A program made the position numbers and the translations under genes. Shown piece after piece: positions 28,071-62,432 of a stretch of 64,000 nt of DNA. Below the pieces are notes generated by a model. The model was given only the letters and a program-made list of their open reading frames with translations. It did no database searches and had not been told where the DNA came from. Source of the DNA: Tribonema minus (Eukaryota; Sar; Xanthophyceae; Tribonematales; Tribonemataceae); contig JAFCMP010000006.1 in NCBI GenBank assembly GCA_017506865.1, positions 1 through 64,000 on the forward strand, given 5' to 3'. Numbering within the stretch: position 1 is the first letter of the stretch; the number at the start of each line of letters is the position of its first letter.

Positions 28071-28076
28071 AGCACA

Positions 28077-28529
28077 ATGCGTGCGTACGTCACTAGGGTT
28101 GCACAGAAGCGTATTGCGAAGTTTACATCTGAGTTCAAGTGCTCCTTTTGTGGTGAACTGTATGCTCGGAATCGAGCCGACTCACCACACGCTCCAGATA
28201 CGCCCCTTGCGCAGCATGGTATCATATTGAAGTTGCCCAAGACTCCTAGTTGCCAGATACGCCCCAAATACGCCGTATTTGTATGCCCAAATACGCTTTC
28301 GTGTGATTCTATATGTAACAGGTGCCTGGCCGGGGGGCGCGTGCTGAGCTGCAGGTCCGCGCACCGCGTGGGGTCACAGCCGTGCCCCATCTGCCTGAGT
28401 CCGCTGCACAAGCGCGACACGCCGTGCTATGCGACTAGCTGCGAGCACGTGTTCCACCTGCACTGCGTCGTCGCCATGAGGGCCGTGAGCGGCGGCGCGG
28501 CGCGCGGGAGGTGCCCGAGCTGCAGGTGA
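28077..28529 (+). CDS. RING-H2 zinc-finger protein (probable E3 ubiquitin ligase)
   Basis: From the ATG at 28077 the frame gives 150 residues. An N-terminal CSFCGEL pair is followed by CNRCLAGGRVLSC, then a RING-H2 finger from CPICLSPLHKRD through CEHVFHLHC to CPSC. The C-C ... C-x-H-x2-H-x2-C ... C-C ligand spacing is complete. RING-H2 proteins recruit E2 enzymes and are usually E3 ligases. A TTGTAACAG acceptor at about 28321 suggests that the RING part may be a separate exon, so the upstream part is less certain. The exon end (AGCTGCAG then GTGAAC) is also a donor, so the protein may continue past the stop shown here. Confidence 0.7.
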   Translation: MRAYVTRVAQKRIAKFTSEFKCSFCGELYARNRADSPHAPDTPLAQHGIILKLPKTPSCQIRPKYAVFVCPNTLSCDSICNRCLAGGRVLSCRSAHRVGSQPCPICLSPLHKRDTPCYATSCEHVFHLHCVVAMRAVSGGAARGRCPSCR

Positions 28530-28560
28530 ACATCAGTTGAAGTTGTGCAGAAGTTGAAGT

Positions 28561-29145
28561 TGAGCCCGCTGCACAAGCGCGACGCGCCGTGCTACGCGAG
28601 TAGCTGCGAGCACGTCTTCCACCTGCACTGCGTCGTCGCCATGAGGGCGGTGAGCGGTGGGCGGCGCGCGGGCAGTGCCCCAGCTGCAGGTGAACATCGG
28701 TTGGAGTTGTGTAGAAGTTGAAGTTGAGCCCGCTGCACAAGCGCGACACGCCATGCTATGCGACTAGCTTCGAGCACGGGTTTCACCTGCAATGCGTCGT
28801 CGCCATGAGGGCGGTGAGCGGCGGCGCGGCGTGCAGGACTGCAGGTAAACTTGAAGTTGAAGTTTCGGTCAGCAGAGTTGAAATTGATTTTGAGGTTGGA
28901 GCAAATTTGAGGCTGACGCTGTCGCGGATTGATGTGACGTCGACCTACACTGCGTCGTCACCATGAGAGCGGAGCGGCAGGGTGGCGCGCGGGAGGTGCC
29001 CCCGAGCTGCAGGTGCGCTTATTTAAAAAGTCGAGGTTGAAAAGTGCAAGTGTTGAGGTTGAAGTTGAGGCTGCAAGCACGTCTTCCACCTGCACTGCGC
29101 CGTCGCCATGAGGGCGGTGAGCGGCGAGGCCGCGCGCGGGAGGTG
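28561..29145 (+). repeat. Tandem array of four decaying copies of the RING-H2 exon
   Basis: After the first RING exon (28397-28510) the same block recurs at 28561-28690, 28725-28850, 28941-29012 and 29069-29145. Conserved pieces are CCGCTGCACAAGCGCGAC, GAGCACGTCTTCCACCTGCA and GTCGTCGCCATGAGGGCGG. Copies 2 and 3 keep most zinc ligands but carry frameshifts; copies 4 and 5 keep only the second half. Each spacer contains GTTGAAGTTGAAGTT-like sequence. They are probably pseudo-exons. Confidence 0.88.
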
Positions 29146-29149
29146 AGGT

Positions 29150-32100
29150 GCAGTATTAGTGAAGTTAAATTTCAAGTTGCAGTTGCAGCGAAGTGAGCCT
29201 GACGCTGTCGCAGGTCGATGTGAAGCTCCGGGTGTTGTGGTAGCGGGCGGGCCGTGAGAGCAGCCACTTGAACTCTGGCGCAGGGAAATGTTCGAAGTAG
29301 CTGCACGTACACATAAGCTGGTGGTCAAGGCTCAGCGCAGGGAAGTGTTTGAAGTAGCTGCTGATTCACTAAGCCGGTGATCAAGGCTCGGCAATCGAGT
29401 CAAGTCGATGCTTGTTGCGCCTGACGCTGCACCTGATGGTTGCATGCGGGTAGTGCCAAGGCACCGCATTCCATGCTTCCACCAATGTACTCATGTATGC
29501 AGTAGTGGTTCAGAGGCACTCAAGTAGACGTGTACCTACGTCTGCATGAACGGAATTGTAATAATGAATCGATCAGATGTGATCAACCTGGCAATTTTGT
29601 ATCATGACAGTATGTCTTGGAAGCTTCGATGATCCTGCATGGTAACGCCATGATGCCATCAAGCACGTATAGAAGTATAATGCTGCGCCAGAATTCCAAC
29701 TGCAATCCTCGGCTTGCTACCTCGTGACCTTCCAGAGCGCCCATTGCGCACGGCCTGACGCCGGCGGGGCGCGTGCGAACTGCGCTTGACGGGCTGGAAG
29801 TGCAGGTGCGCTGACTTGGAGAATATCCAGATGTGTATTGGTCTGGTTGGTGATTGACGACAAGACTGCACGTGCAGAGCTGTATGCCTAGTGATACTTC
29901 CAAGCGCCCTGATGTGGACTTGATTTGCAGGTGCTGCCATGCTTGATGGGCTGGAAGTGCAGGCGCGATGATGACTTTCAGAACGTATTGATCTGACTGA
30001 TGAATATTCCAGCTTGTACGCCTACATAGGTAATACTAAGCACCCGATGCGTAATTGGTCTGCAGGTGCTGCCATCTTTGGCTAGCACGGTGCACCTGCT
30101 CAGTGCCGTATAATGTGGCCAACACGTGATACGCCATGAGAGGACTACTTGGAAACATGCAGAAACTTTCCATGATTGTGGCCGGCACGTAATGCATGCT
30201 AGTCTGTATTGTAGATACGGCGCACATTGTACTGTTCGTGATGAATGGCAATTGGGCGCGCCTGCGTTGCACGGACATGCAACCTGCATGCTGTGCGCTG
30301 AAGGCGCCAATGCTTTTGATATGGCAATTTTTACTATATGCATCAGGGCCCAGTGTGCTGCATATTCGACTTGTTTTCGTCTCAATCAGGAGCTGAGTGA
30401 AGCAGACATGAACAGATTACTGTTTGCCAGACGCAATGTGGTCCGTTGCCCGTTGGATATGTACACCGAGTGGCAGGCCATCAGCCCTGGAACATGCCAC
30501 ATTGACTGAGCCCAAGCAACAGTGGTCCACACTTGCACAAGGCAAAGTGCATGTTTGGTATGGAATCCTAGGTGTCCACCGAGTTTCCTGATGCATGTAT
30601 GCAACTAGTGCCTGTAGCAGCAGTGAATGGAGTTTCGCGTTCACAGCATGTATGCTGTCCCGGTCCGGACTCCCAGAGCAAGCGTTTATGAATTGAGGTT
30701 CCGCATGATGTACAAGCTTGCATTGCCTTTGGCATTCCCCAATCCTCTCTGAGCAAGGCAGGGCATCACGACACGCAAGCGGATTTGCACTCAATTTGAC
30801 TACTGTGACCGTCTACTTTGCGCTTGCAGGCCCAGGTGCGCGCCAACGCAAGGCGTGTGCGCGAGGTGTTCGCACGGCTACGTGAGGCCGCCGACCGAAC
30901 TTCCACTGATCGACAAAGCACTGCTGCTGCGCCGCGGCAGCAATGATGACGCCAAAGCTGTAGCATCGTTGTTGCCGCCGCCGCTGCAACGCCGGTGCCG
31001 GCGCCGCCTGTGGTGGCCGCTGCTGCGATGGCACCCACCCGGTCCACAAAACATGATGGCGCCCGCCTGGTTCACATCATGTTTCGGGAACCAGAGCACA
31101 TGCAACGGCTGCAGCGTGCATGCCAAGTGGTGTGGCAGCGCTGGTGGCAGCCATGGCAGTTCACGTGCATGTGCACAGGGTGTGCAGCAGGCTAGCGCCG
31201 AAGCACATATGACAGCGGTGGTTGCACTGTGGCAGTACCGCAGATACGCTCATGAGCGGCGCTGAGGTCTCCAGCTGCTAAAGTGGCAAGCGTCATATTT
31301 CAAGCTCGCACGGTGGATTGCGTGCATAGTGACTCAGCCACCGCGCCGAATCCAGCAGCTATGCTAGCACATCAGGTTCAAATAGGTGCAGAGGTTGGCA
31401 ACGCCAGTCAAGCGCAATGGCGTTCGGGTTTGAGGCCAGAAATGGATTAATCAGTGTGTAGCATGCTGGTGCCGATAGCGTATGATGTTATGTACAGCAC
31501 ACAGGTCCTGTTGCCAGCCTCTTGTAAGTCAAATACTTCGAAGTATGATCATTGAGTTCGAAGTATGATCATTGAGGCGTAAGTGAGAAACATGGGTGTA
31601 TTCATAAGAGAAGATGTGTCATAGCGCAGGATGCCACAAGGCTGCCACAAGTAACGCAGGCAAGGAGGCTCATCGGCGTCACTATAATGGGTGAGCTTTG
31701 CTACAACGATATCAACACGTACGCTGTCCACGGGCAGGCACCGATTGATGCTACGTCACGACACCTCAATAAAAAGTGCACATGTGATGAGTGTCTGTAG
31801 TGCTTTGGGCTTCTGTCTGCTATGCATTGCCGTAGCAATGGTGCGCGTGCGCTGTTGGTCGTTCGTGCTTGGCAACTTTGAAAGCGCTGATTGTCAATGT
31901 TCAGCTATGCATCAGCATGCCATGCAGGTAGGAAATGAGAACGCCCAACAACTTGCTTGAAGGTTGAAATTGTTTATCACGCAAAAACAAGGAGGGATTG
32001 AAAACGCCGAAGGTCGAAAACTGTTAAAACCAAGACACACACAAAAATGGCGCATCAAGTGATACATCAATATCGTAGGTAATTCAAAAATAATAAAGAG

Positions 32101-33100: not shown

Positions 33101-33141
33101 TGGGCTGCGCGCACGATAAATCGGGCTTGCAATAACTAAAT

Positions 33142-35961
33142 CTACGGAGGAGCCGGCGGTTCGGCGCTGGCCGGCGAGGGCCGCGGCACTTGCAACAGTG
33201 CGATGCGGCGGTAAGCGCTGACGTCGCCATCAGGGGCAATGACTGCGTTCCAGTTGTCGATCACGACACGTGTGAGCGCGCGCTGTAGCGCGAGGGAGGT
33301 GCGGCGGCGCCAGAAGGCAACGCGCTGCGCGAGATTGTAGCTGCCCTGCGAGCTCTGCTCGGCGAGTGCGTGTAGCAGCGCTTGGGTGTCGCGTGACATA
33401 GCGCCGAAGTGGTCAAAGGCTGCGGAAAATAGGGTGTGTGTAGTGGGGTCCAGGGCCCCTGAGACTACGTATGTGTCTATCTTTTCCTGCGAAGCCGATT
33501 CAAGCACGCGCTGCACATCGCGCGCGCCCCCCTGAGCCTGACGGAGGCGGGAGGGGCATGAGCTGTCACGTATGGTGACGTCTATGCAACAAGCTACTTC
33601 AAAGCCGCCGCGCAGTTTAGTGCACCGGCCTGCTGCTACCGCGTCGGCGCTCGGCTGCACTTTAGGGACTGGAAGGCAGACCTGGTTGCTGCCAAAGACG
33701 ATGTCCATGAACTTGTTGAACCCGTGGCGCGCCGCGTAGCGGCGGAAGGGGGCAAGGGTGTCCCGGTCGAGACCGCGGAGGTGGGCCACCTGCTTGAGCA
33801 GCTGAAAGAGCGCGTCTGCGAGCAAGTTGTGTCGCGTGACGTTAAGCCCTTGTGTGCAGCGGCGCAGGTGGGCACCCGAGTCCACTGGTCTATGGCACTT
33901 GGGGCACCGCGCCGCAGCGGGGGCGGGGCGCTCCACGCCCAGGTGGCGCCGCAGCGTCTCGCGGAATTCCGGCGGGGACATGGTCTCCGCTGGGTCAGTG
34001 CTCGGCAATTGCGCCAAGAAACCCATGGCCCCCTTAGAGGCGCCGCTGCGCCACGCCGCGACTGCTTCCAACGCATTTGCTGCTTCAAGCCGACGCAGCT
34101 GCGTGGCGGCGAGCGCTGCGTCTAGCACCCGTGATAGCGCCGCTTGACGCCGCGGCAGCACGGCGGCCGGCGGGGCCTGGGCAGAGCCTGGCTCGCGCGC
34201 CACCGCTGGCGCAGCAGCGCGGCGCGCGCCGGCGCGAGTCCGCATGCCCGGCCCCGCAGCTCCGCCTGCCCGTTGCAGCAGATCGCGCAGCGCCCGCCAT
34301 GCGCCGTCGTCCTGGCGCCAGTCCTGGTACCAGACCGTGGGCAGGAGCAGTGCGAGGGCCGCTGCAGCCTCATCGCTGCCGCTGCGCAGCTGCTGCAGGC
34401 AGGTAGCTATCTGGGTGAAGGTGAAGCCATAGCGGGCATGCTCTAGGACGCGGCTGCGTGCCGCGACTGGAAATGCCGCCAGTGCCGGCCCCATGCACTC
34501 GAGGGAACGTGCAGCAAATGCGGCACATGCACGGGGCGCCGCGCCCAGCACGCCAAAGCCACCACTCCCCAGCCGCAGATGCACGCGTACCTGCTGATGT
34601 GCTGGTAGCGTCACTGGGGCCTCGCCACCCCAGTCGGCGCCGCGTACCCATGCCACTGCCGCCGCCCACAGAGAGGGCGGCGCCGCCGCCGCCGAAACCG
34701 CCGGCGGGCCACGGCAATCGTCACCCGCCGCCGGCGCGCGCTGGTGGGCCGGCGGCGTAAGACCCGCCGATGGCTCCTGCGCCAGCGCGGCCACGGCCGC
34801 TAGCGTGATGGCGTCGAAGCGCCGTAGCTCCTCGTGCGTGAGGGATGGCGCTGTATTGCGCGAGACATGCCCTGCGCGGGCGGGGACGGCAAGACGCAGA
34901 ATGGAGAAGGCAGCCTGCACATCCTCCATCTGCACAAGCTCCGCAACCAGGCGGTCGGTGCCGGGGGCACGAAGGGTCGCCGCCACTTGCGCGCGCACGA
35001 AGCCCTCGGTGCCGACCGGCACCCCCATCAGCGTGATGCCGTCGTCACATACTGGTACGGGGACATTGGCGGCGGCAAAGACGGCGGCGGCGCGCTCGCG
35101 GGCGCCGCCTGAGGCCGGCACCACCGCCGCGCATTTCGTGACGTTGACCTGAATGTTGAGCTCGCTCAGCGCCTGTTGTATGAAGCAGAACGCGCGGCCA
35201 ACGTGGTCGAGCACCGGCGCGTCACAGCTGGGCGTCATGATGGTGAGGTCATCGAGGTAGCCCGGAAGCGCCAGTTGCGGGAACTTGGCGCGGGCAGCCA
35301 CCATGGTGCCGCGCAGTGCCAGCGCGAACAGCAGCGGCCCCAATGGGTCGCCCTGCTGCACGCCCTGTTGGGAGAGGATGATGGCGGCGTCGGCGTGCCC
35401 ATCTAGGCCAAATTGTAGCCAAGGGGCCCGGCCGGGGCCGTAGATGTGCTCGACGTAGCCGTACAGGCCAGGCAGATGCTCGGCCACCGCGGTGAGGACT
35501 GCCGAGCGCGACAGCGCGTTGAAGGCATTACTGCCGTCAATGGCAAGGAGCACGCCGCCGCACTCATGCGTGAGCTGCGCCATGAGCGCCACTCTCTCTG
35601 CGCCCCCCCGCGCGCCGACCCCAAACTGGCCAATTGGTTCCAGCAGCGCGGAGACGCGGTCCCGGGTGTCCGTGCAGAAGGTGCGGGCGAACAGGCGGCG
35701 GATGGTGTCGCCGCACGCGATGGGGCGCGCCTTCTCGCCCACAGCGCTGAGGCGCGCGGCCGCGTGAAGGCGCCAAAAGGGGGCGGGCAGCGCGGCGGGG
35801 GTGGAGTACACCGCGGTACCCAGCCACGCCAGCAGCTCAAGGAGCCAGTCAACCGTGCGCCCCGACGTGTGCGCCGTGTGCCGGACGCACTGCTGGAGGT
35901 GGGAGTTGCGCAGCCCAGAGGGACCGGCGGCCGAGCCAGGGTTGGCGGCGAGGATGGTCAC
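33142..35961 (-). CDS. Reverse transcriptase/endonuclease-like polyprotein
   Basis: This is the protein described for the 33142-36048 element. No in-frame stop interrupts the 939 residues, and the RT catalytic Asp pair and zinc ligands are all present, so the enzyme could be functional. The Pro/Ala-rich linker in the middle (about residues 390-430) and the high GC of the ORF match the neighbouring host genes, not the AT-richer intergenic DNA. Coding here rather than on the other strand is supported by the RT motifs; the long frames opposite are shadows. Confidence 0.88.
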   Translation of the reverse strand: MTILAANPGSAAGPSGLRNSHLQQCVRHTAHTSGRTVDWLLELLAWLGTAVYSTPAALPAPFWRLHAAARLSAVGEKARPIACGDTIRRLFARTFCTDTRDRVSALLEPIGQFGVGARGGAERVALMAQLTHECGGVLLAIDGSNAFNALSRSAVLTAVAEHLPGLYGYVEHIYGPGRAPWLQFGLDGHADAAIILSQQGVQQGDPLGPLLFALALRGTMVAARAKFPQLALPGYLDDLTIMTPSCDAPVLDHVGRAFCFIQQALSELNIQVNVTKCAAVVPASGGARERAAAVFAAANVPVPVCDDGITLMGVPVGTEGFVRAQVAATLRAPGTDRLVAELVQMEDVQAAFSILRLAVPARAGHVSRNTAPSLTHEELRRFDAITLAAVAALAQEPSAGLTPPAHQRAPAAGDDCRGPPAVSAAAAPPSLWAAAVAWVRGADWGGEAPVTLPAHQQVRVHLRLGSGGFGVLGAAPRACAAFAARSLECMGPALAAFPVAARSRVLEHARYGFTFTQIATCLQQLRSGSDEAAAALALLLPTVWYQDWRQDDGAWRALRDLLQRAGGAAGPGMRTRAGARRAAAPAVAREPGSAQAPPAAVLPRRQAALSRVLDAALAATQLRRLEAANALEAVAAWRSGASKGAMGFLAQLPSTDPAETMSPPEFRETLRRHLGVERPAPAAARCPKCHRPVDSGAHLRRCTQGLNVTRHNLLADALFQLLKQVAHLRGLDRDTLAPFRRYAARHGFNKFMDIVFGSNQVCLPVPKVQPSADAVAAGRCTKLRGGFEVACCIDVTIRDSSCPSRLRQAQGGARDVQRVLESASQEKIDTYVVSGALDPTTHTLFSAAFDHFGAMSRDTQALLHALAEQSSQGSYNLAQRVAFWRRRTSLALQRALTRVVIDNWNAVIAPDGDVSAYRRIALLQVPRPSPASAEPPAPP

Positions 35962-36048
35962 CTCAGAAAAAAGCGCGGTTTCGTAAAATGTGTTGTTTGT
36001 TGGCGTGGGTGGGGTGAGGCCAAGGCGGCATGACTGAATGCCTAGGTA
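33142..36048 (-). mobile_element. LINE-type retroelement ORF: reverse transcriptase plus zinc knuckle and endonuclease-like tail
   Basis: The minus frame is open from 36048 but has no ATG near its start. The longest reported start is a GTG at 35961, giving 939 residues to 33142. The RT begins at SAAGPSGLRNSHLQ and has ARPIACGDTIRRLF, AIDGSNAFNALSR, GVQQGDPLGPLLF and the catalytic box YLDD near 35250. About residue 680 a zinc knuckle follows (CPKCHRPVDSGAHLRRC). After it come RHNLLADALF, MDIVFGS and VACCIDVTIRDSSC. This arrangement resembles LINEs with a C-terminal restriction-enzyme-like (PD-(D/E)xK) nuclease. The lack of an ATG suggests 5' truncation, or an upstream exon. Confidence 0.88.
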
Positions 36049-36226: not shown

Positions 36227-36263
<37 letters not shown>

Positions 36264-45250: not shown

Positions 45251-48200
45251 TTACGAATCCGCACTGGCTTCGGTGTCGCCTGCACCTTCTTCAACTTCTT
45301 CTGGTGACTCTCCTTGATTGCCCGACGCCAGCCCCGACAGGATGGAGCTCCACACCAGGTCCACACAGTTCACCCACAGCACGCGGTGCTGCGCCGGGAT
45401 GACGCTGTCTGTTGAAGTTGAAGTATTGAAGTATAGCAAGCACAGAGTGTGTGTCAGCGAACAAGCTGAGGCTTTCCGAGTAAACACATGTTGAAGTTGT
45501 CATATGCAATTTAGCAAAGTTACATCGGTGACTGTTGTGCACAGCACACACTAAAGGACAGCATTGATTGCGCACTGCAGCTGATTCAGAAGACACCGAG
45601 CATCGCACACCAGCACAGCTCGACAGGGCTCCCTCTGTTGCAATTGGCCAATGTTCTCTCTGAGCTCACCAGACGCCTTGCAGTGCCCACGCAAGATGCA
45701 CACTGCCACCGTCGATAAGCAGCCTACTTCAAAAACCCACCACTGGCTATGGAATACGGCACTGGCGCAACAACAAGGCGACGCTCTGTTGCGCTGCACA
45801 ATGTTGCGCACAAAAGCAATCTGCAGTTTGTCACCATGTGCCTTGTAGGACATGCAGCGCACTGCCATCACAACACAGGCGAAGCAGCACTATTGCAGCA
45901 CGTTCCTCACAGCTCTCCAGCGCGCGGCGTGGGCAACTTCAACATCACTCACATGTAAACACGTGCACCAGTGGCCAGAACTTCCAGCCGGTTAAAACCA
46001 CTGCGGCGGGGGCACACGGCAGCAGAAACAGACACAATGAGGGCTAGGGTTAGAGTTACAGGGTCAGCTGTCACCAAGTGGCCACAAGGTGACAGAAAAA
46101 GACGTAGCAGTGAAGCATCAGGGAGCCGTGCGCCAAGTACGCTGCAGTTCAAAAGGACAGTGCCGAGGTATCAGCGTTTGACAAACAGCGACACATCAGC
46201 AAAAGGTCAACTGTCACCAGATGGCTGCAGGTGCGAGACCAAAGAGCATGGCAGTGGAGCTTTGGGGAGAAGCCATGCGTCAAGCATGTTGCAATAGAAT
46301 GTAGTACAGCATCTACCTACATATTGCATTATGAAATGTGCACCGCAGGGTACAGAACCAGAGACACAATCAGGGTTAGGGTAAGGTCAATTCTCACAGC
46401 ATTGCTACAAGGTGAGAGCGCGAAAAGCGGGAGCATTGAGAAGCAGCTATGTGTCAAAAATGTTGCGATTCATAAGGTACAGAACCAGGGAATGGGCATT
46501 TGACAAAGCACTCATGATGCTCTACGTCAGGGGGTGCTTGTTGTCAATGCCGCTGGAGTAATACGTGTGATGCGTATACTTGATGTTGCAACATTCCACT
46601 TCCACTATTCACAACAGTGCACCTGCATTCGCTCGATTTCACCTGTCTCACTGCTCATCTGCCTTGCTGTCGTCTGTCTACAGTTATTGTTCGTCACAAC
46701 TTCATTCGTTCGGATGTTCATTCGTTCGGATGAAGAAACATGCATTTGCGAGGATGCACCTGATTGTCATCCGCGCCTGCCGCTGTCGTATCATGCCGGT
46801 ACTTTTCGCCTTCTCAGTTTGGCCAATCACGAACATTTGTTGGTGTGGGGTCACCTGATCTGAACCTACAACCGGTCCCGCAGCGCCTGCAACTTAGCTC
46901 ATCTGATGGATTCATTCGTTCACATTCATGAATGTGCGCTCATGGTTCATCCACTCACATTCATGAATGTGCGCTCGCCCGTCTTGATGCGCGCCTGCTA
47001 CTGCTCCCGCACCTCCCCCAGCGAGTCATCCACAGTCACGAATGTGCGCTCATGATTCAATCATTCACATTCATGAATTTGCGCTCACCCGTCTTGATGC
47101 GCGCCTGCCACTGCTCCCGCACCTCCCCGAACGAGTCCCCCCTCAGCAGCCCCACCAAAAACATGTAGGCCGAGCACTTGGACACAAAGTAGATGCTCTG
47201 GTCCATCAGGATCTTCAGGGGGCGGTTAATGGGGACATCCATGGGCAGAATGACGTCGCTCCATTGGTAGTAGTAGTGCACGAGGGGGCCAAACATGCCG
47301 CCGATGAGGCCGTTGCGCAACGTGCGGCCGAGGTCAAAGTCGAGAATGTCGCGGCGCCCGAATTCAACTTGCGCCAGCCAGTCTCCCACCTGTGCCGAGG
47401 GGACAGATTGGCAAATCAAAACAGTAAGATGATGAAAGAGAGAGGCCTTACTTGGGCTCCAAAATCAGGAACGTGTTAGAGGCCCTGCGAGTGTAGAAGC
47501 TGTACCACGGCCAATTGCATGAGTTATATCCTCTGTTTCATGCAGCGTGCGCCAGAGATCAAAGTCGAGTATGTCGCGGCGCCCGAATTCAACTTGCGCC
47601 AGCCAGTCTCCCTCCTGCACCGCAAGAATAAACCGGAATATTGATCGATAAGAAGACACAGAAAAACGGAATATGAAAAACGAATCAAAAAGATCGTTGA
47701 GCTCTAGGTGACAAGGGATGGTTAGCCGCAAGTGCCTTCCACCAATAACCGTGGCCGCCACTGCTGCAGTCATCGGCCACGAGTTAAACAGTGCCACCAT
47801 AACCACAGTAGACACAAAGACTTCTGTGTGCAAGCTTTTTAGCGTTCGAGGCATGGGTGTTCAGTATGGACAGGTCTCACGTGTTCGGTAGGCCAGCTCC
47901 AGCCGGCAGCCCAACACAGAGGCCCAGCAGCTAGTGACAGCGCTCTTGAATGCGCGTAGTGCAGAAGGTGATGAGCGGGTTTTGAACCAATCCATGCGGC
48001 GACATGGAATATGTTGGGGCTCTGCTATTTGAACCTGTTGTCTAGTGTGGCCAGTCGTATTGGTTCATAATTGTCGGTTTTGCGCAGCGTGCAGCCGAGA
48101 TCAAAGTTGAGTATGTCGCGGCGCCCAAATTCAACTTGCGCCAGCCAGTCTCCCACCTGCGCCGAGGGGGCAGGTTGGCGAATGAATGAATTCAAAAATA

Positions 48201-51200
48201 AGAGAAAGGCCTTTCTCAAACGATGGGGCTCTGCAAGTGAAAAAGCTGCGGCGTTACCAACCGTAAATGTGCCCGACGTCAAAGTTGAGGAGTACTGCCC
48301 AACTTCAACTTCAACTCACACCTCACTTGCATTAGTGAGACATCAGTTGGTGAATACATGAATGAATCTATGGTGGGAGCAAAAGGTCAGCAGCAGAGCA
48401 CTGCTGCATTGTGAATTGCGCCGTTGGCACAGTAATTGGGTGCAGGCAGAAGGGTTGCACTGATGAAGCATGAGCACGATGCTGGCGACGACGTGCCTAC
48501 TTCAACATGTCACTTCAACACACAGCGCGCACGTACCAGGTAAATGACCACGTTGATGGTCGTCTTGGTGAGGATGGGGTGCTCATCTAGAGCGCCAACG
48601 TACCCCCCTGCACGTTAAGCGCACGAGAATTTGTGTTGAAGTCGAGGTTAGTGTTCACAAGTTTGAGTTTAAAGTAGGGTGCAGCAGCGTGGATACGAGA
48701 CAGGTTTCAAAACGTCTCTGAGGGGTGCAAGCCATGATGTCATTGCTAGTGACACTGCAAGCCATCTGGCCAAGCCAATCAAGCAGCTGTGAAAACAACA
48801 AGAACATACCAAACTTCAAGTGGTGACGCACCGCCATGCGTGCATGCACACACAATGCTTGCATGGACCACAGTGTGACTGCCACGCCTGCCATGCCAAC
48901 TTATTGCCGTTGCTGGTGTGAGTCTTCAGGCACTGGCGCGTTGCGCTGGTCGAAATAGTGCCACTTGAAGTTAGTGCTCGCGCAACGACAACCTGGCCAT
49001 CTCACCTACAGTCACAAAGGACGCCATTCTAGGGCGCGTACTGGCGTTGGCTCAAACCGTTGAGTTTCAAAAGCGTGGTCGCCCACACGGGCACTACCTC
49101 CTCATAATCCACTTAGACGATAGGCCACGTACCCCCGCAGAAATTGGCAGAAATTGACCGAGTGATTAGCGCTGAGATACCGGATTGTGATGCACAGGTG
49201 TGCTTGGTTAACAAATGGACATCTCAGCGTTCAGCAACGCTGGCTGTTGTGTAGATGTGTTTTTGTAGATACAGTGACTGCAGTAGCCATGTTTTTAGCA
49301 TTCAGCGATGCTCAGCGGTACTACAATTTGGTGTTTGCGGAAGAATGCCCATTGTGCTCATTGTGCGTGCAGCAGTGCTCAGCGCAGCAGTGCTCAGCAC
49401 GTGGCAGTGCTTATAGAGTGCGTGCTAGCTCCGAGTCTGAGTTGTTGCTATCGTGGTTGGTTCTGTTCAACGCCAACCAAGCTAGTAGCTTCGTCGGGGG
49501 TGTCTGCTCTGCAACCCTAACCCTAACCCTAACCCTAACCCTAACCCTAACCCTTTCTCCAATCTGCTCTTGGTGAAAGACCACGAATTGCTGCTGATCT
49601 AGATGCAGTGTCAGCTTTTCTGTGTGCGGACTTTCCTGGTGCATTTTGAACTCTTGAATCCGCCAAGCTGCCTCACCCGCACCTACGTAGCGCCCGTTCA
49701 CAAACGTCCTGATTTCGTCACGCTCGACCTCAACTCTGACTTCTAGCCTTGCCTGGTCGGGGCCTTTGTATATGTACTCATATATGTACTTGACCATCTG
49801 CAGTCCTGTGCAGAGCTCGACATTGAAGTGGCAGTCGTACTTGAGGAGCAGGTATGGAATGTAGGGAACTACCCATCTGTTGTCCAGCTCTGCCCCCCGC
49901 TTGTTGACCGTGCGGCCATCATTTCTGCGTCTGTAGGTAGGGTATCCACCCTCCCCCGTTGTCGTCGTTTCTGCCAAGTACTTAGGGTATCGCTTCGTGC
50001 ACTGCCCGTCCTGCATACACGGAGCATGCGGGTTGTGTTCCCCGCATGGTCTGTGCATCATGTGTGTCACTACAGCGTCGTACAGAGCGGGGTGCGGGTC
50101 GCGATCCGGTATCTCAGCGCTGATCACTCGGTCAATTTCTGCCGGGGTACGTGGCCTATCGTCTGGGTGGATTATGAGGAGGTAGTGCCCGTGCGGGCGA
50201 CCACGCTTCTGAAACTCAACGGTTCGCGCCAACCCTAATACGCGCCCTAGAATGGAGTCCTTTGTGACCTCCGCCAGCATGTGCTCCCTGTGCAAACCCT
50301 TCAATTTGTGCCCGTAACCGTAACCCTAACCCTAACCCTAAGGACAGGGCTCAGAATGAAGTGCACCGGCGCAGGTGTTCCGATGAGAGTCAAGGTTGAA
50401 TTGATCAATGTCACTCACCCCAGTTATCGTATGGAAGGCGCATGGCGATTTCCTGCAAGCAAGGGCGTGGCAGAGAACAGCATTTGTTACTGTTACGCTG
50501 CTTGCCAACACCCTCAAACTTTGTCAGCACCTAGGCAAGCAGTTGCTGAAAGCGCTTTGTCAAGGAGCTGTTTGACTGAAGCGTGATTGAATTAATGTAG
50601 CAGGTCCTGCAGGTGTTTCACTGCGGTGACCGTGTCTCCCTGGTAATCAAGATGCACTCTGGTAGCTGTGCGTGTGTTTATGTACTCAGTGACATTCTTA
50701 GATGCTCTTACTGAAATATGTGGACAGTGAGTGACACCTTGTTGGAAACTACCCACGATGCCTGCGACTTTGCCGGCAACTTGAACTTCAAGTCTGACTT
50801 CACGTCTGACATCATACGCACTGCGCTCCTGTTTGAGTAAAGGTATGGCAACAGCGTCTCGTTCTACAGTAGCCCTAAGCCTTAACTGTTAGAGTCAAAG
50901 GTACGGCAACAGCGTCTCATTCTACAGTAGCCCTACCCCTTAACCCTAATACTGTCCCCACCACCCTCACGTGACATTGCCCACTGCGGTCGCAGAGTGC
51001 ACAACGCACAGCGGTAGACGCGCCAAATGTGTGTCTTGCATGCGCGCAGCCGAGATACAAAAGCCAACATGAGGTGCGTCACCCATGCATACTTCCATTC
51101 ATTGCAAGGGTACCCAACAATGCACATTAATGGCTGGAAGGGCATCTTGCTGTATGTCGCTGGCTGAATATAATTGTTCGCCATGATCACGTACTTCACA

Positions 51201-53424: not shown

Positions 53425-56400
53425 ATGGCACTGGCTGCACAGATACCACTGCAAGAGCAGGGAGAGCACTGGATCGCTCAGGTCCGTGGTGCTTGCCACT
53501 CCGCTGCTGGGGTAAAAAGGAATGCTGTCTCGAAGATCTGACAATGTGCATGATGCCCTTCTGGATCTCTGCAGTCGGAGAAAGCCGTGAAGCGGGTTTA
53601 TCTGGATAGCATCGTGCCTTTCAAGTACTATGATGCAGAGCGTTACCTGCAGACGGCCGCCATGTGCTACCGGACGTCCAGACACTTCCAGGTGGCCAAA
53701 TGTTTGAAAGTCACTTGCCCAAGATTGCTTCAAAACTTCACTCGACTCAACCATGCACAAATGACTTCATGCACGTAGGCCATTTCATGATCTCGAACTT
53801 CGGGTAACGTTCCAATGTCTCATCAACTGCGCTACTTTCAGTGGCACGCATGTGAGCTGGTGAATACTCTGGCAGCTGGCGCAGCCAGAGTATTGCAGCA
53901 ATGCCTATAGAAAGCCTCTTGCACTGCACGAATAGAATTGCAAGCGCATTTGACACCACCATCACTGCAAAGTATTCCTCTTCAATCGGATTTATGGGTG
54001 AATGATCGCTCCTGCGAAAACACACTGAACCATTGAAAATTGAAACAGCCTGTTGCCCATTCAGATCAAGCCACGGAGTCATGGTGGCCGCCTTAGATCC
54101 ATAGACACGTGCTGTGATATTTTTAGCAATGCCTGGTGCAAGAGGCGGCAGAGAAGAATAGCTAGCATCATTTGCCTATCCAAGTGCATAACCATGCAGC
54201 TGATGTCTGTTAGCAGAAACACATTGCAACGCCCCTCGAAACAAAGCTTCTAAGTCCGTCTGCCTCTATAGCAGCGGCAACCGCTTTCCATGCGCTTCCA
54301 CCTGCTTCACTCTACGCGCGCTGCACGCTCTTCTGGCAGGATGCTGGGATGTGCTACCGACGCGCAGCAGCGCTCAGGGAGCGCATGCAACTGACGGAGG
54401 ACCACGCAGCGGTGGCGTCGCTGCTGCACGAGGTGAGGGGGGCCGGCCCCTGTGCACTGCCACGGTTTGCCCCACAATGTGGCGCTTAAGCGATCTGCGC
54501 AGCTCGCATCGCAATGGTGCGTGTGCTGGATTGCCTGACGGCGGACGATGCAGCGGTAGAGGCGCCAGAGCGGTGACGTCGCTGCTGAATGAAGTGAGCC
54601 CGTTTGCTGCCGTTGCTGACGGGGCCTGCGAGTCTTCACTTGTGTGCGGTTGAGGTCCTGACACGCCACGGGTTAGGGTTAGGGTTAAGATTAGGGTTGA
54701 GGCTAGGGTCATGTTTAGGTTTCTCTCATTCTCACCCTAACTTCGGCTGTGTTCAGTGCACTTGGCCTGATGGCCTCCGCAGCGCACGGCGACTGCAAAG
54801 CAGTAGCGTGGTACGGGCAACCCCCGCCTTCCCTCAAGTGCAACATGCACATTCGTGATTCATCACAAGTCGAAGCATGCAAACCCTTGACGACGCTTGC
54901 AGGCGGCGCTGTGCTACCGCAAGGATGACCCTCAGGCGGCGGGCGTCTGTTACAAGCGTGCAGTGGGAATGTACTGCCAGGGCGGACGATTTGATGCCGC
55001 TGCGCGCTTGGAGGTGGAGGTGGCCGGCATGCACGAGGACAACAGGTGCAGTTGCTGGCTGCACACATGATGCAGGTGAAGTTGAAGTTTGATGCTTATC
55101 ATCCTAATCAAGTTAAGGACATACCTCTTTCTGGATTCAGTGCTCAGTGCTGCAACGGGGCTGACAGCGTGCGAGAGCACCCCACTGCCGCTGCTCGTTG
55201 CTGTTCATGTATTATCAACAGCGGCGCGTACATAGCCCTTGAGCCCACCAGCTGAGAGAGCGCCGGCTGAGCGTTGACATTAATTGATGCAGCGTGCAGC
55301 ACAGGTGGTGCGGCAGTGCTCGTTTCCGTGCTGCTGCATGCAGATTCATGACAGCGGACCTGGTGAGGCCAGTTTTAAAGTCAAGACCTTGTGGCGACAT
55401 GCGCACTAGTACCGTGCACGCAGGTGTCGGAGACCATGTGCAACTGCTGCACTGGTGCCAACAAACAAGTACATGCAGTTTCTGGTGCCTGATGACCTCG
55501 CTTGCAAGTACAATGCTAGTCAACAAAGTGAAGGCATGAAGCTACGCCTCTCGTGCTGGTCGCCTTCGCCTGCACGGACGACCTCGAGAACACCAGTATA
55601 CCCTGCATCTCAACTCCGGAACGTAGAGCAACATGAAGCCTGACACAGCGGAGGTGCTTCTGCACATAACGCATGCCGTGAAGCCTTTTATTCTAGCAAG
55701 TTGAAGTACTCAGCTTCCGCTGTTTTTACCTGCAACTTCAAGGCACGGGTGACGACGGCAAAGGCAACACTTTGACGCCGCTCGAATGAAGGCCGGCGGC
55801 GTGGCAAAGTCCATGGCCAAACGGGGCGGAAGCATTTAGGCCTGAGTACTATGGTGACTGTCACACAACATGTAGATTCCGTACAGCAAGCCTAGATACC
55901 ATTCATCTATGCTTATTTGCGCCCTGCGCGAGAATTCACAAGAGTACTGTAGTGACTTGAAGTACTCACCATCTGCCTGCCACTCTTCAACTGCGACTTC
56001 AACATGCAGGAGGTGGTCATCCGCTCAGGAGCGCCACCTGCGTGCCGAGAAGCTGTTTCTGAGCGCTGGCGCGGGCTTGGCAAGCTGCGCCCATCAGAGC
56101 GTGGTGGCTGCGGCACGCGCGGCGGTGCAGGGCGCCAGGTGACGCACCGCACTCATGATTGAACTTCAACTTGGAATTTTCGCAGTTGAGTTTGATAGCA
56201 GTGCAGTGGTGCAGTGGCAGTGTTGAGGTATTGCAGAGAATGTACTCAGCATGGGCGTGTTGCCTATTGCGCACCACTCATCATTGAATTTCAACTTAAT
56301 CACCAGGGTGCTTGAGGTCAATGCTGCAGCACGTGAGGGAGCGACGGCAGTGCAGCAGTGCCGTGGCATTGTTGAGGTAGCCCGGAGCATAGTGCGTGAG

Positions 56401-59400
56401 CGGGTGATGGCAGCGCAGCAGTGCAGTGGCGTTGTTGTGACGCTGCAGGAAAGCATTGCACGAGGGGATGGTGGCATTAGCGCAGGCCACGGTGCAGGGC
56501 GGAAGGCAGTGCTCTACACCCCCTTCTGTGCCACGAGTGCTGATGGCTGCAGTGCTATTCCATTGCAATGGCATCACTGTTGGCGTCTATGGCGGTGCGT
56601 CGCATCAAGCGATGCACCACACCCGTGCCAGGCACTTGCAGTGCAAGACAGCAAGGGTGCGGTGATTGGCGGTCAGAGATGATTGCGCCCGAGCGCACGA
56701 CAGAGTTTTGTTTCGGGGCGACATATTTAAAGTGTAAGGCAGTAGAGCCCCCTCGTGCATTGGCGCCACCAATGGCTTCAAGAAAAGAAGCTGCACAGGG
56801 GGGGGGCTCTAGACCCCTTTGGCGCACCAAGCAGTGATTGTCTGTCGCACAACCATGATCATGCGTGCATCTGGGCAGCTGATGTATGTGTGTCAGCATC
56901 AGCAGGTGCCCTTGCAGATGTGTGGCTGCGGTAGGGCTCCTTTGGGCACAGCGCAGCGGGCAGCGGCGCTTCTGGCTGTACCATAGCAAACAAAAGCGTT
57001 CACAAGTAGCTGATGCATGACTGTCAGCTTAGCACCATTGCAGGAGCTGCCATTGGGGAGCACTGCTGCACGTGCTGCAGGTGCAGAAACGTGCAGACGC
57101 CGTGCCTTAACGAGCCGCAGTCACAGCCTTGCAATACTCACGTAGTTCATGTGCACGTCCAGACATTCGGCAGGTATGAACCAAAAACTTGGGGAGCTAC
57201 CTGGGGGGTTGAGCGCCTTTTCATTGTGGACTCCCCCCCCCCCCCCCGCCCTTGCAGATATGGCGATGGCGCTGAGCTATTTGAGAAGGCAGGACGACAG
57301 TGCTTGGCGACCAACCTGCTGCGTTTCAACGCACCGCAGCACTTCCTGCACGCAATCTTCTGCCTGCTGGCAAAGGTGATGAGGCGTATAGCCTGGGATT
57401 TGAAACGGGTCAGATGTGCATACTGCATCGCTCACGTGTGCAGCGGCCACTTCATTGGGCTAGCATACGGGGTAGGGTCAGGGCCAAGCAACCTCCTGCG
57501 TTTCATCACTACACAGCATTTCCTGCATGCGATGTTCTGCCTGCTGGCAAAGGTCAGTGATGAAGATGAAGTTGAACAACATGAACATTGAGGTTCTTGT
57601 TCAATGGGGAGTTGAAGCTTCTGTTTTGATCCAATCAGACAACTGAGAGTGATGACGCAGATAACACTGGGACTGAAATGGGTCAGATGTACACGCTGCA
57701 TCGCTCACATGTGCATCGGCCACTTCATTGGGCTAGGGTAGGGTAGGGTTAGGGTCAGGGTTGGGGTAAAATGGCAGCCCGTCAGCGCCACAGTGGATTC
57801 CCTGCTTCAAATGCTTTCAAGAAAGTTGCCTGCAGCAGCTGGCTGAGGTAAAATGCAGGCTTCAAGCACTGGCTTATGGCCAATCAGGAAAATACAAGTC
57901 ATAGTGGTCCCTAATTGCCCATGCTACTGGTAGTACAGTAGTCTTCTGAATGTGGTGTTTAGCTCCACGGTCCTGGCCGATCCTCTCACAAGCCATATTC
58001 ATAGCTCTGACGGGACCTTATGGGGACGGCCCTGCTTCATCATTGTGTCAAGTGGTGCACTGATTGTGTTTAATGCACTGCAACAATTGCAATTGCAAGT
58101 GCAACTGCAACTGAGCATAAGAGCCTCGTAGGAAAGCAGCACAAACCTGCTCACGTTGTACGATTCGGGAAGTTGAACACCATGGGCGATGCCTGGTGTA
58201 TGTAGGAGACTGTCCCTGTACGTAGGTCAAGCTTGACATCATGGCAGCCTGGCATCATGGGTAGAGCGGGGTGCAGTGTTGCAGCATGAGCTTTTGCAGG
58301 CATGGAAACCAGGTGGCAGGCCTCCCTTCCGATGGTGTTGCACGCGCTGGCATGCATTGTAAACGTCCTAGCTATTGCAGCTGCGCACTCGACTGGTGTG
58401 CACAGCGGGTGGTGTGTAACCCTAACCCTGCCCCTAACCTAACCCTGACCCTAATCCCATCGCCAATCCTAACCCTAACTCTAACCCTGAGCCGCTGGTG
58501 TGTTGCGCAAATGCAGTTCAGTATTGACGTGCATGGTCATGTCCATGAGATTGGACGCAGACTGGGTCCCAGATCTCTGTACATTGCAGTTTATCAAGGT
58601 GTGGCACAGAGTGAGGTGGCAGTCACGATCTTGCAGGCTGGCATCTATGGGCTGCATGACAGCATGGTGAACAGTGTGCACACCATATCGAATGATGTAT
58701 GAGACGAAATGAACCGATGCTGTCAAGTTGATAGGACGAAAGTCCAGCTTGGAATGACAAGCCAAGAGGATTTAAACGTTCTCCCACCGCCTTTTTTCAA
58801 ATATGGGTGGCAGTGAACTGCTTCCTCACTGCGCTTTGCATGTTGATTTGTCACAGGATGCAGCGCCGGTTGCAAAAGACAAGCTGGCGCGGTTTGAACG
58901 GTATGACATTGCGTTTTCCGGTTCCAGAGAGAGGCTTTTCGCCAGCAACCTCATCGACATCCATGATCGGTGAGATTTGGCAGATGCCACATCAAAAGGC
59001 AGCAGTACTGACTACTTTACCCGGCCGATCTGCCATTCTCACCATTTAATCATGCGTGCGAGGGGAGGGAGGGGGGGGCGGGGGGGGGCGTTTGCCAGGC
59101 AGGTCCTTCTGCTGCACTGTGCATACTTCGTCTAACCCCAAGTCCCAACCCTGACCTAACCCTAAGCCAAGAACGCGACTCACAACATGTTTTGTGGTTG
59201 AATGAAAAACGAATCAAAAAGATCGTTGAGCTCTGAATGCCGTACAGCTTGATGTCATAGCGAGTCATGTGGCAGAGGCGGAGGTGCTATGTACGCATAC
59301 GGGACCGCTGTGCTTGGACATGTCAAATAAGATCCTTTGTGGACACCGGCTTAGCGTGCAACAGCTGGACATGCATGCCCTGTGCGAGTAATTGAGTTGA

Positions 59401-60438
59401 TACCCAGCTCAGGACCGCAAGAAGTCTGCCAACTGACTCTGCCCCTCCTGTCCACACTTCTGTTAGAATCAGCACCACTGGTGCACAAATCTGACTGCTA
59501 CGCATATGAAACACGAACCAAAAGATTGTCGAGCTTTTGGTGACAAGGGATGGTTAGCCGCAAGTGCCTTCCACCAATATGGCCAGTGTCACATGTATCG
59601 CCAGCGTCACTGGCCACGAGTCAAACAGTGCCACCATATCCACAGTAGGCAAAAAGACTTCTGTGTGCAAGCTTTTTGGCGTAATGGTCTGAAACCCAAG
59701 GAGCTATCTTAAAAGTACGGAGGCGTTACAATCTCGTACAGAAGCGGTCCCACTCAGATGCATGGCTCATGACACTACACAAAACTTGCTCTCATAGTCT
59801 GACGACTGTGCCCAGGGTTTGCAGCAGCTTGATCTCGGCACAGCCGCGCGCAGCTGCCCTTGGCCAGTGTTTTGCTGCATATGCTGAAGCTGCACTATGT
59901 TGATCCGCAGCCCCTGCCCTGCTAACATGTAGCAGGGTTAGGGTTAGGGTTAGGGTTAGGGTTATGGTTAGGATTATGGTTAGGGTTAGGTTTAGGGTTA
60001 GGGTTACCTCACATCCTTGTGTTTCACCAGTACATGTGCTCAATGATCTGTGAGCAACTATTTTTTGAAACATGAGGACCTGGAGCAGAGCGAATACTGC
60101 AGGCCTGACAATTGCTCAAGCAAGCTATGCGCCATCTTCCAGGGCGGTGATTGGGGAGTAGATGGGGAAACAGGGAAAAGTCACTGCTGAGCTGCTGTTG
60201 CAATGGCGATGACAATAACTGCTTTTCGTGGAAGTTTTGAATGGGATGACAAGAAGTAGCACATACACACAGAGTACCAGGGCAAAGACACTGCCGAGCT
60301 GTTGTTGCACTGGCGATACCAGCAACTATTCCTTGTGGAAGTCGTGAGTGGCATGACCAGAAGTAACATGTACACTTCTTATAGAGCGGTAGCGTCATAT
60401 TACCTCTGCTACTAGTACTACCACTGCTACTAGTACTG

Positions 60439-60479
<41 letters not shown>

Positions 60480-62317
60480 GCTACTACTGCTAGTATTACC
60501 AACGACACTGTTTGAGAACTTACACCTGATAATGTCTTCTTCGTCCGCTGCACTGCAGGTCAGACCTGGATGCATTTGCAGACCACGTGTTTGACTTTGA
60601 CTGCATAGTGCAGCTGGACAGCTGGTGCCTCAGGTGAGCCTGCGAAGCGGTGCGGAAACCTGGTGTTTATATCAAATTGTTTGGCCCGTTCATGATCGAT
60701 TTCAAAATGACCGTTCTTAAATATATATATTCCTTGCATGGACGGACTTTACCAAAGCGCTGGTCTGATTTCGTGAGAAAGTACTCATTACAGGATCCGC
60801 GCAACTTTCATGCCTAACCCTAGCCGTAAGCCCCCAACCCTAACCCTACCCCTACTCAAAAGGCTCGAACGGCGCTGGGGTGCTGGGATGCCTAAGCAAC
60901 TAATCTTTGTGCCAGCATCCAATGCAAAGCCTACAGACAACACATCAACTGCAGTGCTAAACATCGCTGCCCCCAATGTCATGATGGCGCACCTTGATAC
61001 AGTAAACATTTTTCGCTGAGGGGGGGCAGACTAGTGAGTAGTGATACGCTGGTGCATGAAGGCCATGCGCCAGGCATGAGCACAAATGCAAAGAAGCGCT
61101 GTGCTAGAGAAATCAATCGACCACTGCTGAACCAGGAAAGTATGCGTTTTGACGGCGCTTTCAGCTAACCACAGCTTGTCCGGGGTCAGCGCTCCACACT
61201 CTGAAATCGAGCATACTGTATGCATGACGAGTTGAAAGCGTCTCCTGTCATGCGTATTTCTTCTGGTGACGAGCTCAGATATGCCCAGGTCAGTAACTGT
61301 TGCGCTTGGGAGCCGGTCACAAGGCTGCTGGCAGTTTCAAGCTCAACGGCCTACACCTGTAGGCGCAGCAGAAGCGCTCTCGTCTATGTACGTACGTGCG
61401 CCAACTGCACAATCACAATATTCTCGAGTGGCACCTGCATGGCCGCCGCCATGGTCATGGGATGCCGTGTTCAAGTGCAATGTCAATACACCTTGTTAAT
61501 GAGCGCCAATGTCGCACATGTTCAGTGAGGCGTGATTGACCCATCTTTTGTGCGCAACAGGGCCCTTGATCTAGTGCGAGAGAGGATCGACAAGGAGGTG
61601 CAACGGCGCGCCGCCGCCGCTGCTGCCGCTGCGAAGATCGCCGCTGCCGCCGCCGCAGCTGCGGCTGTAGGCGACACGCTCAGCATGCAGCAGGAGGTGA
61701 GGTTCAATGTCTCCATGGGCATGTGTAGTGCTCTTGTCTACCATGTATATGCACCCGTATGCCTCCGGCTTGCAGTTGTGACGCCTTGACTTGCGTCAAA
61801 ACATGGAGAGATGTCATCTATCAGTGTGAAGTCTTGTTGCGTTGCATGGCGACTCTGCTTCTGCCGCTGCATGCTCAGGCAACGCAAGATCAGGCACCAT
61901 AAAGTCTGCATCAGAAGTGCCAGAACTGAAGTGCTTTACGTTGATGCAGATGGTCAAAGTTGCCTCGGCATGACATTGTGTGCTGCGCCTTAAGCTGCAC
62001 CTGCGGTTCGTATCGAGAAACAGCATAGAGAGGAGCAGTAGTCAACGCAAAACAGAGTTCACCATGGTCTCTACGATAATTGTACCTCTTTTAAGAAGCA
62101 GCGACTCACCGCTGTTGCAACTCTATCACATGGTGACTCTCCTCCTCAGGCGAGCTCGGAAGATGACAGCGACAGTAGCAGCGAAGGCGATCGAGAAAAG
62201 CAAGGAAATCAGCCAGGTACAGCGAACCGCCAGTCTCGTGGCGGCGAGAGAACGGCCAGCAGAGCACGCAGCGGCGCAGGCACGGTAGACGCCGGTGGAC
62301 GTCAGACCACCAGCAAG
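53425..62317 (+). CDS. Alpha-SNAP (soluble NSF attachment protein), ten exons
   Basis: Exons are 53425-53481 (proposed start), 53575-53691, 54340-54432, 54903-55045, 56010-56138, 57258-57375, 58857-58969, 60559-60633, 61561-61696 and, less certainly, 62150-62317. All borders are GT-AG and every join keeps frame. Exons 1-9 give 327 residues against about 295 in animals. The TPR-like repeats align throughout. DPQAAGVCYKRAVGMYCQGG fits the 'DPQEA-C--RAI-IY---GRF' block. ELFEKAGRQCLATNLLRFNA fits the 'E--G---L-S-LLK--AK' block. VFDFDCIVQLDSWC fits the C-terminal '-YD-IS-LD-W' that activates NSF. The excess length is an Ala-rich stretch in exon 9. SNAP recruits NSF to SNARE complexes for disassembly in membrane fusion. 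Exon 10 would add an acidic Ser-rich tail (SSEDDSDSSSEGD). Confidence 0.9.
54670..54712. repeat. Interstitial telomere-type repeat (TTAGGG, degenerate)
   Basis: GGGTTAGGGTTAGGGTTAAG then ATTAGGGTTGAGGCTAGGGT in intron 3 of the SNAP gene, in TTAGGG orientation. Confidence 0.92.
56139..56480 (+). repeat. Degenerate duplications after SNAP exon 5
   Basis: The start of intron 5 (GACGCACCGCACTCATGATT GAACTTCAACTTGG) recurs at about 56268-56305 as GCGCACCACTCATCATTGAA TTTCAACTTAAT. A GCAGTGCAGCAGTGCAGTGG-type repeat appears at 56205, 56348 and 56410. Together they form a loose tandem array seeded from the exon 5/intron 5 border. Confidence 0.7.
57376..57745 (+). repeat. Tandem duplication of the 3' half of SNAP exon 6 with its intron start
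   Basis: The block from AACCTGCTGCGTTTCAACGC through CTGCTGGCAAAG and on to GGCCACTTCATTGGGCTAG (57313-57465) recurs at 57486-57738. Both the coding half and about 100 bases of intron (GGGTCAGATGTGCATACTGC) are copied. Confidence 0.92.
57481..57553 (+). pseudogene. Pseudo-exon 6b of the SNAP gene
   Basis: The copied coding part reads SNLLRFITTQHFLHAMFCLL AK and ends at a GTCAGT donor, as in exon 6. The available acceptor (GGGTCAG) leaves two bases before the frame. Exon 5 needs one, and exon 6 needs none, so 6b cannot be spliced in without a frameshift. It lacks the YGDGAELFEKAG half. The amino-acid changes (FNAP to ITT) are modest, implying a fairly recent copy. Confidence 0.85.
57731..57768. 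repeat. Interstitial telomere-type repeat, degenerate
   Basis: GGCTAGGGTAGGGTAGGGTT then AGGGTCAGGGTTGGGG. It follows the duplicated SNAP exon 6 block; a shorter form, GGGGTAGGGTCAGGG, follows the first copy at 57469-57483. Confidence 0.88.
58417..58491. repeat. Interstitial telomere-type repeat (CCCTAA, degenerate)
   Basis: TAACCCTAACCCTGCCCCTA then ACCTAACCCTGACCCTAATC and, after a short gap, CCTAACCCTAACTCTAACCC. It lies in intron 6 of the SNAP gene. Confidence 0.92.
59131..59168. repeat. Interstitial telomere-type repeat, degenerate
   Basis: CTAACCCCAAGTCCCAACCC then TGACCTAACCCTAAG, 100 bases after a poly-G/A tract in intron 7 of the SNAP gene. Confidence 0.8.
59500..59695. repeat. Dispersed ~190-bp repeat, copy 2 (intron of the SNAP gene)
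   Basis: This is the second copy of the repeat at 47668-47860, in the same plus-strand orientation. A third short piece (AAAAACGAATCAAAAAGATC GTTGAGCTCT) lies at 59201-59235 and matches 47679-47705 exactly over about 30 bases. The copies are diverged but collinear, as expected for an old transposon fragment. Confidence 0.8.
59934..60006. repeat. Interstitial telomere-type repeat, twelve TTAGGG units
   Basis: The longest block: GGGTTAGGGTTAGGGTTAGG and GTTATGGTTAGGATTATGGT then TTAGGGTTAGGTTTAGGGTT. It lies in intron 7 of the SNAP gene, in TTAGGG orientation. Confidence 0.95.
60438..60492 (+). repeat. (TAC)n trinucleotide microsatellite
   Basis: About fourteen CTA/TAC triplets in a row, flanked by imperfect TACTAG/CTGCTA units, in intron 7 of the SNAP gene. 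The poly-Ser frame on the other strand is an artefact of the repeat. Confidence 0.95.
60812..60856. repeat. Interstitial telomere-type repeat (CCCTAA, degenerate)
   Basis: CCTAACCCTAGCCGTAAGCC then CCCAACCCTAACCCTACCCC, in intron 8 of the SNAP gene. Confidence 0.9.
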
Positions 62318-62432
62318 GTATGTATGGCAGCGCATCGAAACTTCAAGTGTAATAATGCACACAGGTGTCAGACCACAAGCAAGGTATGTTTGGCAGCGCA
62401 TAGAAACTTCAAGTTCAACCATGCACACCTGC
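62290..62432 (+). repeat. 68-bp tandem duplication spanning a SNAP exon 10 donor
   Basis: GTCAGACCACCAGCAAGGTA then TGTATGGCAGCGCATCGAAA CTTCAAGT..AA..ATGCAC occurs at 62299 and again at 62367 with few changes. The copy includes the CAGCAAG/GTATGT splice donor, so there are two near-identical donors in tandem. The frame stays open through both copies to a stop at 62615-62617. Confidence 0.9.

Follow-up and report, generated by a model that had tools for sequence, protein, structure and literature searches.

Decayed copies of exon edges in introns of Tribonema minus point to frequent short tandem duplications

The genome assembly of the xanthophyte alga Tribonema minus (GCA_017506865.1; 158.2 Mb in 554 contigs) contains introns in which parts of the adjoining exons recur in decayed form. 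The analysis centres on the first 64 kb of contig JAFCMP010000006.1 (C6), hereafter the window, in which edges of RING, Mpv17-like, SNAP and GAPDH-like exons have been copied, and was extended to kinesin and Mpv17 genes of the assembly. At about one fifth of the tested exon borders, the neighbouring intron holds decayed copies of the exon edge together with its splice site.

Exon-edge copies in the window

Copies in the window were located by self-BLAST and their borders were mapped by probe. The exons concerned and their copies are as follows.

28396-28525, plus strand: RING exon, 3′ part that was copied; GTGAAC from 28526 is the true donor
28561-29145, plus strand: four downstream RING exon-edge copies; donors after 28689, 28844, 29012 and 29142
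47389-47089, minus strand: 301-bp exon of Mpv17-like type, flanked by an acceptor before 47389 and a donor after 47089
47542-47622, minus strand: upstream copy 1 of the 5′ part of the Mpv17-like exon; acceptor GTGCAG at about 47614
48080-48186, minus strand: upstream copy 2 of the 5′ part of the Mpv17-like exon; acceptor GCGCAG at about 48156
46921-47027, minus strand: downstream copy of the 3′ part of the Mpv17-like exon; source 47031-47137, donor GT changed to GC
57256-57375, plus strand: end of SNAP exon 5; profile positions 170-209, weak match
57489-57554 and 57649-57757, plus strand: copies of the end of SNAP exon 5 and of the following intron, respectively, with about 94 bp between them
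60171-60375, plus strand: direct repeat of 98 bp, spacing 107, 78% identity; candidate 'SNAP exon 6', exon status unproven
62301-62428, plus strand: direct repeat of 62 bp, spacing 66, 89% identity; candidate 'SNAP exon 10', exon status unproven
11094-11314, minus strand: end of a GAPDH-like exon (11251-11314) with a downstream copy (11094-11157); a dispersed element contains the pair

The RING exon, identified by a Pfam PF13639 match (E 9.7e-07) on the open reading frame (ORF) 27849-28529, is followed by an array whose first copies lie about 164 bp apart. Two of its four copies also pass the border probe and the other two rest on BLAST. At the Mpv17-like exon, each of the two 5′ copies is 96% identical over 45 exon bases, and in the 3′ copy (93%) the copied exon end lies near 46979. 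The Mpv17 label is based on a match to the Mpv17_PMP22 profile below the cut-off at 45335-45406 in the same stretch; the copied exon itself has no Pfam match. The Mpv17 intron also harbors a high-copy element of about 338 bp (47671-48008), located between the two 5′ copies, which has 39 other near-full matches with 92-98% identity among 40 scored of 2494 first-look candidates. The sequence GGAATATG is present at both ends of this element and represents a possible 8-bp target duplication. The border copy of SNAP exon 5, an exon with weak profile support (E 0.0115, 28.8 bits including neighbours), is 84% identical and ends at about 57552-57554.

An earlier note on this DNA had described recurrent copies of exon edges. 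Self-BLAST and border mapping bore out four copies at the RING exon, three at the Mpv17-like exon (two of its 5′ part, one of its 3′ part), and the border copy of SNAP exon 5. The repeats that it had assigned to SNAP exons 6 and 10 exist as well, but there is no SNAP profile match at 60171-60375 or 62301-62428, so that these exon labels are unproven. For the likely SNAP exon at 58860-58970, no copy that could serve as the 'exon 6' copy was found, even at E 5. The GAPDH exon-end copy, which is 84% identical in the window self-BLAST, is present too but lies outside the part of the window that the note had delimited, and as it resides in a dispersed element it need not represent an independent local event.

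The 801-bp stretch carrying the GAPDH pair (10900-11700) has counterparts of at least 500 bases at 17 other places, namely nine at full length with 96-98% identity, five at full length with 86-88% and three in part with 92-96%. The end of its likely source exon (C235:302355-302577; 87%, Gp_dh_C E 5.3e-13) has itself been copied twice further downstream, at 302186-302244 and at 302019-302103. The duplication may thus have occurred in the source gene and then been carried off by the element. As judged from alignments, which extend across exon end and copy alike, the pair is also present in 14 other occurrences of the element.

Copies at borders of kinesin and Mpv17 genes

Kinesin exons were collected by a profile search with 134 matches, 74 of which lie on fetched contigs. 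After removal of three matches without enough flank and of two decoys, 69 exons were left, whose splice borders were placed by sequence on the fetched contigs; 103 borders with a clear splice site were retained. Six of the kinesin genes (L069-L074) are whole stretches selected for many short exons. The Mpv17 set comprises 29 of 30 loci, since L030 overlaps L020, and 25 scored borders, one of which (L027) is within the window and copy-free. Probes were 45 bp long and low-complexity probes were skipped; counts without this filter are given separately. The border sample is thus small and drawn from two gene families.

Of the 103 kinesin borders, 22 have their exon edge copied locally in direct orientation once or more, with 44 copies in total. 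The inverted control, in which the same borders were tested on the opposite strand, gave none (0/103), indicating that the copies are not a product of chance. All 44 are on the intron side, with 18 of 18 donor copies downstream and 26 of 26 acceptor copies upstream, and each of the six whole-stretch genes has at least one border copy. The largest array by probe, at the kinesin locus L059, consists of five copies. At L055, BLAST detected five copies of the exon end, only one of which passed the border probe. In the Mpv17 family, local direct copies were found at 4 of 25 borders. By plain overlap, an exon touches a local direct repeat at 7 of 30 Mpv17 loci, where L020 and L030 represent the same place; L008, L020 and L026 belong to these seven and lie outside the four copied borders. 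Additional pairs are apparent in the profile tables. Gp_dh_C matches on C112 cover profile positions 1-93, followed by 46-93 (interrupted by a stop) and 61-98, and those on C24 cover positions 5-66 and then 32-65. Further pairs in the profile table are Mpv17 on C201 and kinesin on C246 and C511. Exon-edge copying is real and extends beyond the window, in accordance with the earlier note's proposal of a process that acts at many genes and continually makes decoy exon edges.

The closest relatives of a kinesin of this genome, L040, were found in Chrysoparadoxa australica (73%) and in two brown algae, Choristocarpus (74%) and Ectocarpus (81%, with 62% of the query aligned). In a tree of 13 kinesins it pairs with Chrysoparadoxa beside the brown algae, with support values of 87/89 that are not strong. 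The genome is accordingly placed in a stramenopile alga with affinity to the brown algae. As a separate observation, four 7-mers of the GAAGTT/AACTTC type are more frequent than four controls of the same composition, both in the window (84 vs 8) and in the kinesin loci (176 vs 30). Their density is 3.64 per kb in the spans of decoy arrays and 1.20 per kb elsewhere, a difference inflated by copying within the arrays.

Tandem duplication and the excess of copies at exon edges

The count of local repeats covered 320,619 bases, merged into 57 stretches, among them the window and five random stretches hand-picked from 100 places drawn on 20 contigs. Pairs at most 1.5 kb apart were considered and low-complexity pairs were skipped; L001, L002 and L027, which lie inside the window, were excluded as loci, as was L003 (C6, 124-127 kb). 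Local direct repeats make up 9.3% of these 320.6 kb. The copying thus extends beyond exons, a point on which the earlier note's account is not supported. Rather, it looks like ordinary tandem duplication and not like exon copying as such. Direct pairs outnumber inverted ones by 184 to 5, which is the orientation expected of tandem duplication by break repair and agrees with the inverted control at the kinesin borders. Seven of the ten pairs with at least 94% identity are contiguous and 60-511 bp long (length minus spacing 0, 12, 0, -1, 2, -11 and 0), and the remaining three have spacings of 429-758. The copies are direct, local and mostly contiguous when young, and they decay without protein constraint, as detailed below.

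Probably, frequent short head-to-tail tandem duplications of roughly 60-500 bp are tolerated across exon borders and thereby lengthen the introns. When such a duplication crosses a border, the extra half-exon and its splice site would fall on the intron side by geometry. Such events would be tolerated because the original exon stays whole, and the mRNA could remain unchanged while the intron lengthens. Repeated border-crossing duplications would build up arrays of decoy exon edges, most of them presumably unused in splicing, and copies reaching far into the exon may be removed by selection. The duplications themselves probably arise when both overhangs of a staggered break are filled in and the ends are then joined. 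In mammalian cells, small tandem duplications are described to arise at engineered breaks whose complementary overhangs are filled in before the ends are joined (PMC8355091, in the part of that report available to us). The duplications observed here are direct and, in most of the young pairs, contiguous and near-blunt; at this size they would match the products of this pathway, which may be active in the present genome as well. In the mammalian system, CST-guided fill-in by Pol alpha-primase led to direct, contiguous duplications from near-blunt ends at breaks introduced into human and mouse cells; a part of these enzymes in the present case is hypothetical.

Probes at exon edges were copied more often (25/120) than probes in the near intron (31/303) or deep intron (68/565). 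At the strictest threshold, the counts were 20/120 at the edge against 4/93; without the complexity filter, the contrast was 25/126 vs 16/128. At the standard threshold, 17 of 351 probes were copied in the random unannotated stretches and 40 of 491 in the window. These ratios were compared with a simulation of tandem duplication regardless of position, with a constrained exon and neutral copies; smaller runs agree with it.

Several observations weigh against the proposed explanation by tandem duplication. The observed ratios, 2.04 for edge to near intron (bootstrap 1.40-3.16) and 1.73 for edge to deep intron (1.27-2.20), exceed those of the position-blind simulation, which amount to 0.93-0.99 and 0.67-0.70, respectively. 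When the decay of exon-derived DNA is slowed to one half or one third of that of the intron, the ratios rise to 1.31-1.42 and 1.01-1.24, around the lower limits observed. This modified model in turn overshoots the rate at the edge (0.26-0.36 vs 0.21 observed) and that of copies from deeper in the exon (0.21-0.30 vs 0.085 at -105 to -60). Moreover, several young edge copies are gapped, for instance in L070 (45 bp, 98%, spacing 197) and L072 (66 bp, 94%, spacing 125). Finally, junctions are few, i.e. seven contiguous pairs including one with a 12-bp overlap, and are compatible with slippage too.

Slower decay of exon-derived DNA would explain part of the edge excess. Consistent with such decay, the identity of the copies to their originals is 0.851 in the exon part and 0.659 in the intron part, and the simulation with half the intron rate gives 0.854 and 0.652. 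Conservation of the exon as the sole cause of the excess was considered and rejected, as the blind simulation does not yield it and slower decay yields only a part. A simulation with exon penetration capped at 70 bp lets the ratio of edge to deep intron fall back to 0.72. Three options are left: selection against long copies, a preference of breaks for borders, or a longer persistence of exon-derived DNA.

The second of these options would make exon borders themselves hot spots, where nicks coupled to transcription or splicing, R-loops or nucleosome edges favour tandem duplications in this lineage, with a preferred exon penetration of 30-60 bp; introns would then grow by repeatedly copying their own splice junctions. 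The excess at edge probes, also at the strictest threshold, the low count in random unannotated stretches and the reach of the copies speak for preferred sites. Copies penetrate the exon by a median of 48 bp, with 16 of 22 borders in the range of 30-60 bp, whereas the simulation gives a median of 66 bp and 32% in this range (Kolmogorov-Smirnov p 0.014). BLAST coverage, on the other hand, shows no peak at the border, with 21/103 at the border, 17-24/103 at 20-130 bp into the intron and 11/98 at 300 bp. This flat profile, together with the smaller contrast among unfiltered probes, led us to give the hot-spot reading less weight. Part of the excess also disappears under slower decay of exon-derived DNA, the deep intron may contain unannotated exons, and the borders were drawn from two gene families. 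We therefore regard preferred duplication at borders as rather unlikely.

Decay of the copies and related systems

Differences between kinesin exons and their copies are distributed over the three codon positions as 65/61/113. Changes common to all copies of an array, which belong to the branch of the exon or to the stem that the copies share, number 0/1/7. In contrast, private changes show a flat pattern of 35/35/42 (p 0.66; 11 arrays with at least two copies, 33 of 44 copies). Indels are present in 22 of 44 copies. No in-frame stop was found in the 22 gapless copies, which is of little weight over 45 bases. A search with the exon sequence by itself yielded 31 copies; in 21 of them the alignment still reaches the border, and the splice dinucleotide is retained in 17 of the 21, compared with a fraction of 0.84-0.85 in the neutral simulation. 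The copies decay neutrally, without protein constraint, and the decoys appear neither protected nor specially disarmed.

It is improbable, then, that the decoys are alternative or regulatory (poison) exons maintained by selection. Many of them do retain GT or AG and a high identity to the exon, and a copy in L050 is open as kinesin positions 268-311. On the basis of the flat codon-position pattern of private changes, selection on the decoys was nevertheless rejected, and indels in half of the copies as well as the loss of splice sites at an approximately neutral rate point in the same direction. Functional tandem duplication of exons, as in mutually exclusive exons, was rejected on the basis of the median penetration at the 22 borders, the flat codon changes and the indels. 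A mini-exon origin was also considered and rejected: of the 44 decoys, only some have AG or GT at the outer end, and no rule emerged.

Templated insertions made during end joining are expected in both orientations. Copying of nearby sequence by end joining of the polymerase theta type, one of the mechanisms suggested in the earlier note, could account for copies that are short and gapped. Given the preponderance of direct over inverted pairs (184 vs 5), the lack of inverted copies at all 103 borders and the length of the young contiguous pairs (60-511 bp), it fits badly and is as improbable as a function of the decoys. Contiguous tandem duplication is the better fit; replication slippage, the other mechanism named in that note, is a possible source of such duplications. 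Assembly artefacts, in favour of which nothing was seen, can hardly be responsible, as the exon parts of the copies are on average about 15% divergent from the original and as alignments that include both the GAPDH exon end and its copy are found at 14 further sites of its element.

As far as the available parts of the reports go, the closest described single case is the potato RdRp gene, in which a tandem duplication likewise extends across an intron-exon boundary and carries the splice signals along (PMC4974935). There, a new intron arose in one gene, whereas the present copies lie inside existing introns at about one fifth of the tested borders. In Drosophila, local duplication of coding sequence likewise creates new splice contexts (PMC2891723), but these are new intron positions, in contrast to the decayed exon halves in old introns described here. 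The inter-boundary and intronic exon matches reported by Exonize belong to the same class of events, in which part of an exon is copied into an intron, and affect more genes than full-exon duplication (PMC12343006); multi-copy arrays of one border, as present here, are not described in the available passages of that report. It is the density and the multi-copy arrays that stand out in the present case. Among the papers retrieved, judged by titles and the openings of abstracts, none deals with decoy exon edges in arrays for a relative of the brown algae. In Ectocarpus, autosomal introns have a median length of 524 bp and occupy about 46% of the genome (PMC12477816, available in part), which fits a lineage of intron growth.

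If the process is general, the long introns of such algae would grow in part by duplications whose crossing of splice junctions makes them silent. Each duplication would be a datable fossil, because its source exon is conserved, and the rate of duplication, the growth of introns and the disregard of near-perfect decoys by the spliceosome could be measured in one genome. Gene finders should be used with caution here, as half exons may be called real.

Several further features of the window were noted. The ORF at 958-5127 is that of a retrotransposon, with domains for reverse transcriptase, RNase H and integrase. A minus-strand ORF of 968 amino acids with a reverse transcriptase match (33142-36048) lies within a GC-rich block at about 32-44 kb, and a second minus-strand ORF (49411-50325) matches a Helitron-like N-terminal domain. 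A near-palindrome of 3.6 kb (21969-25595, 84% identity) carries in one arm an ORF with weak ankyrin matches. The tandem repeat at 17313-19213 has a period of 552 bp (79%) and is a distant relative of the repeat at 7519-7959. Interstitial tracts of telomere-like TTAGGG are found at 49513-49554, 54670-54728, 58416-58488 and 59934-60006.

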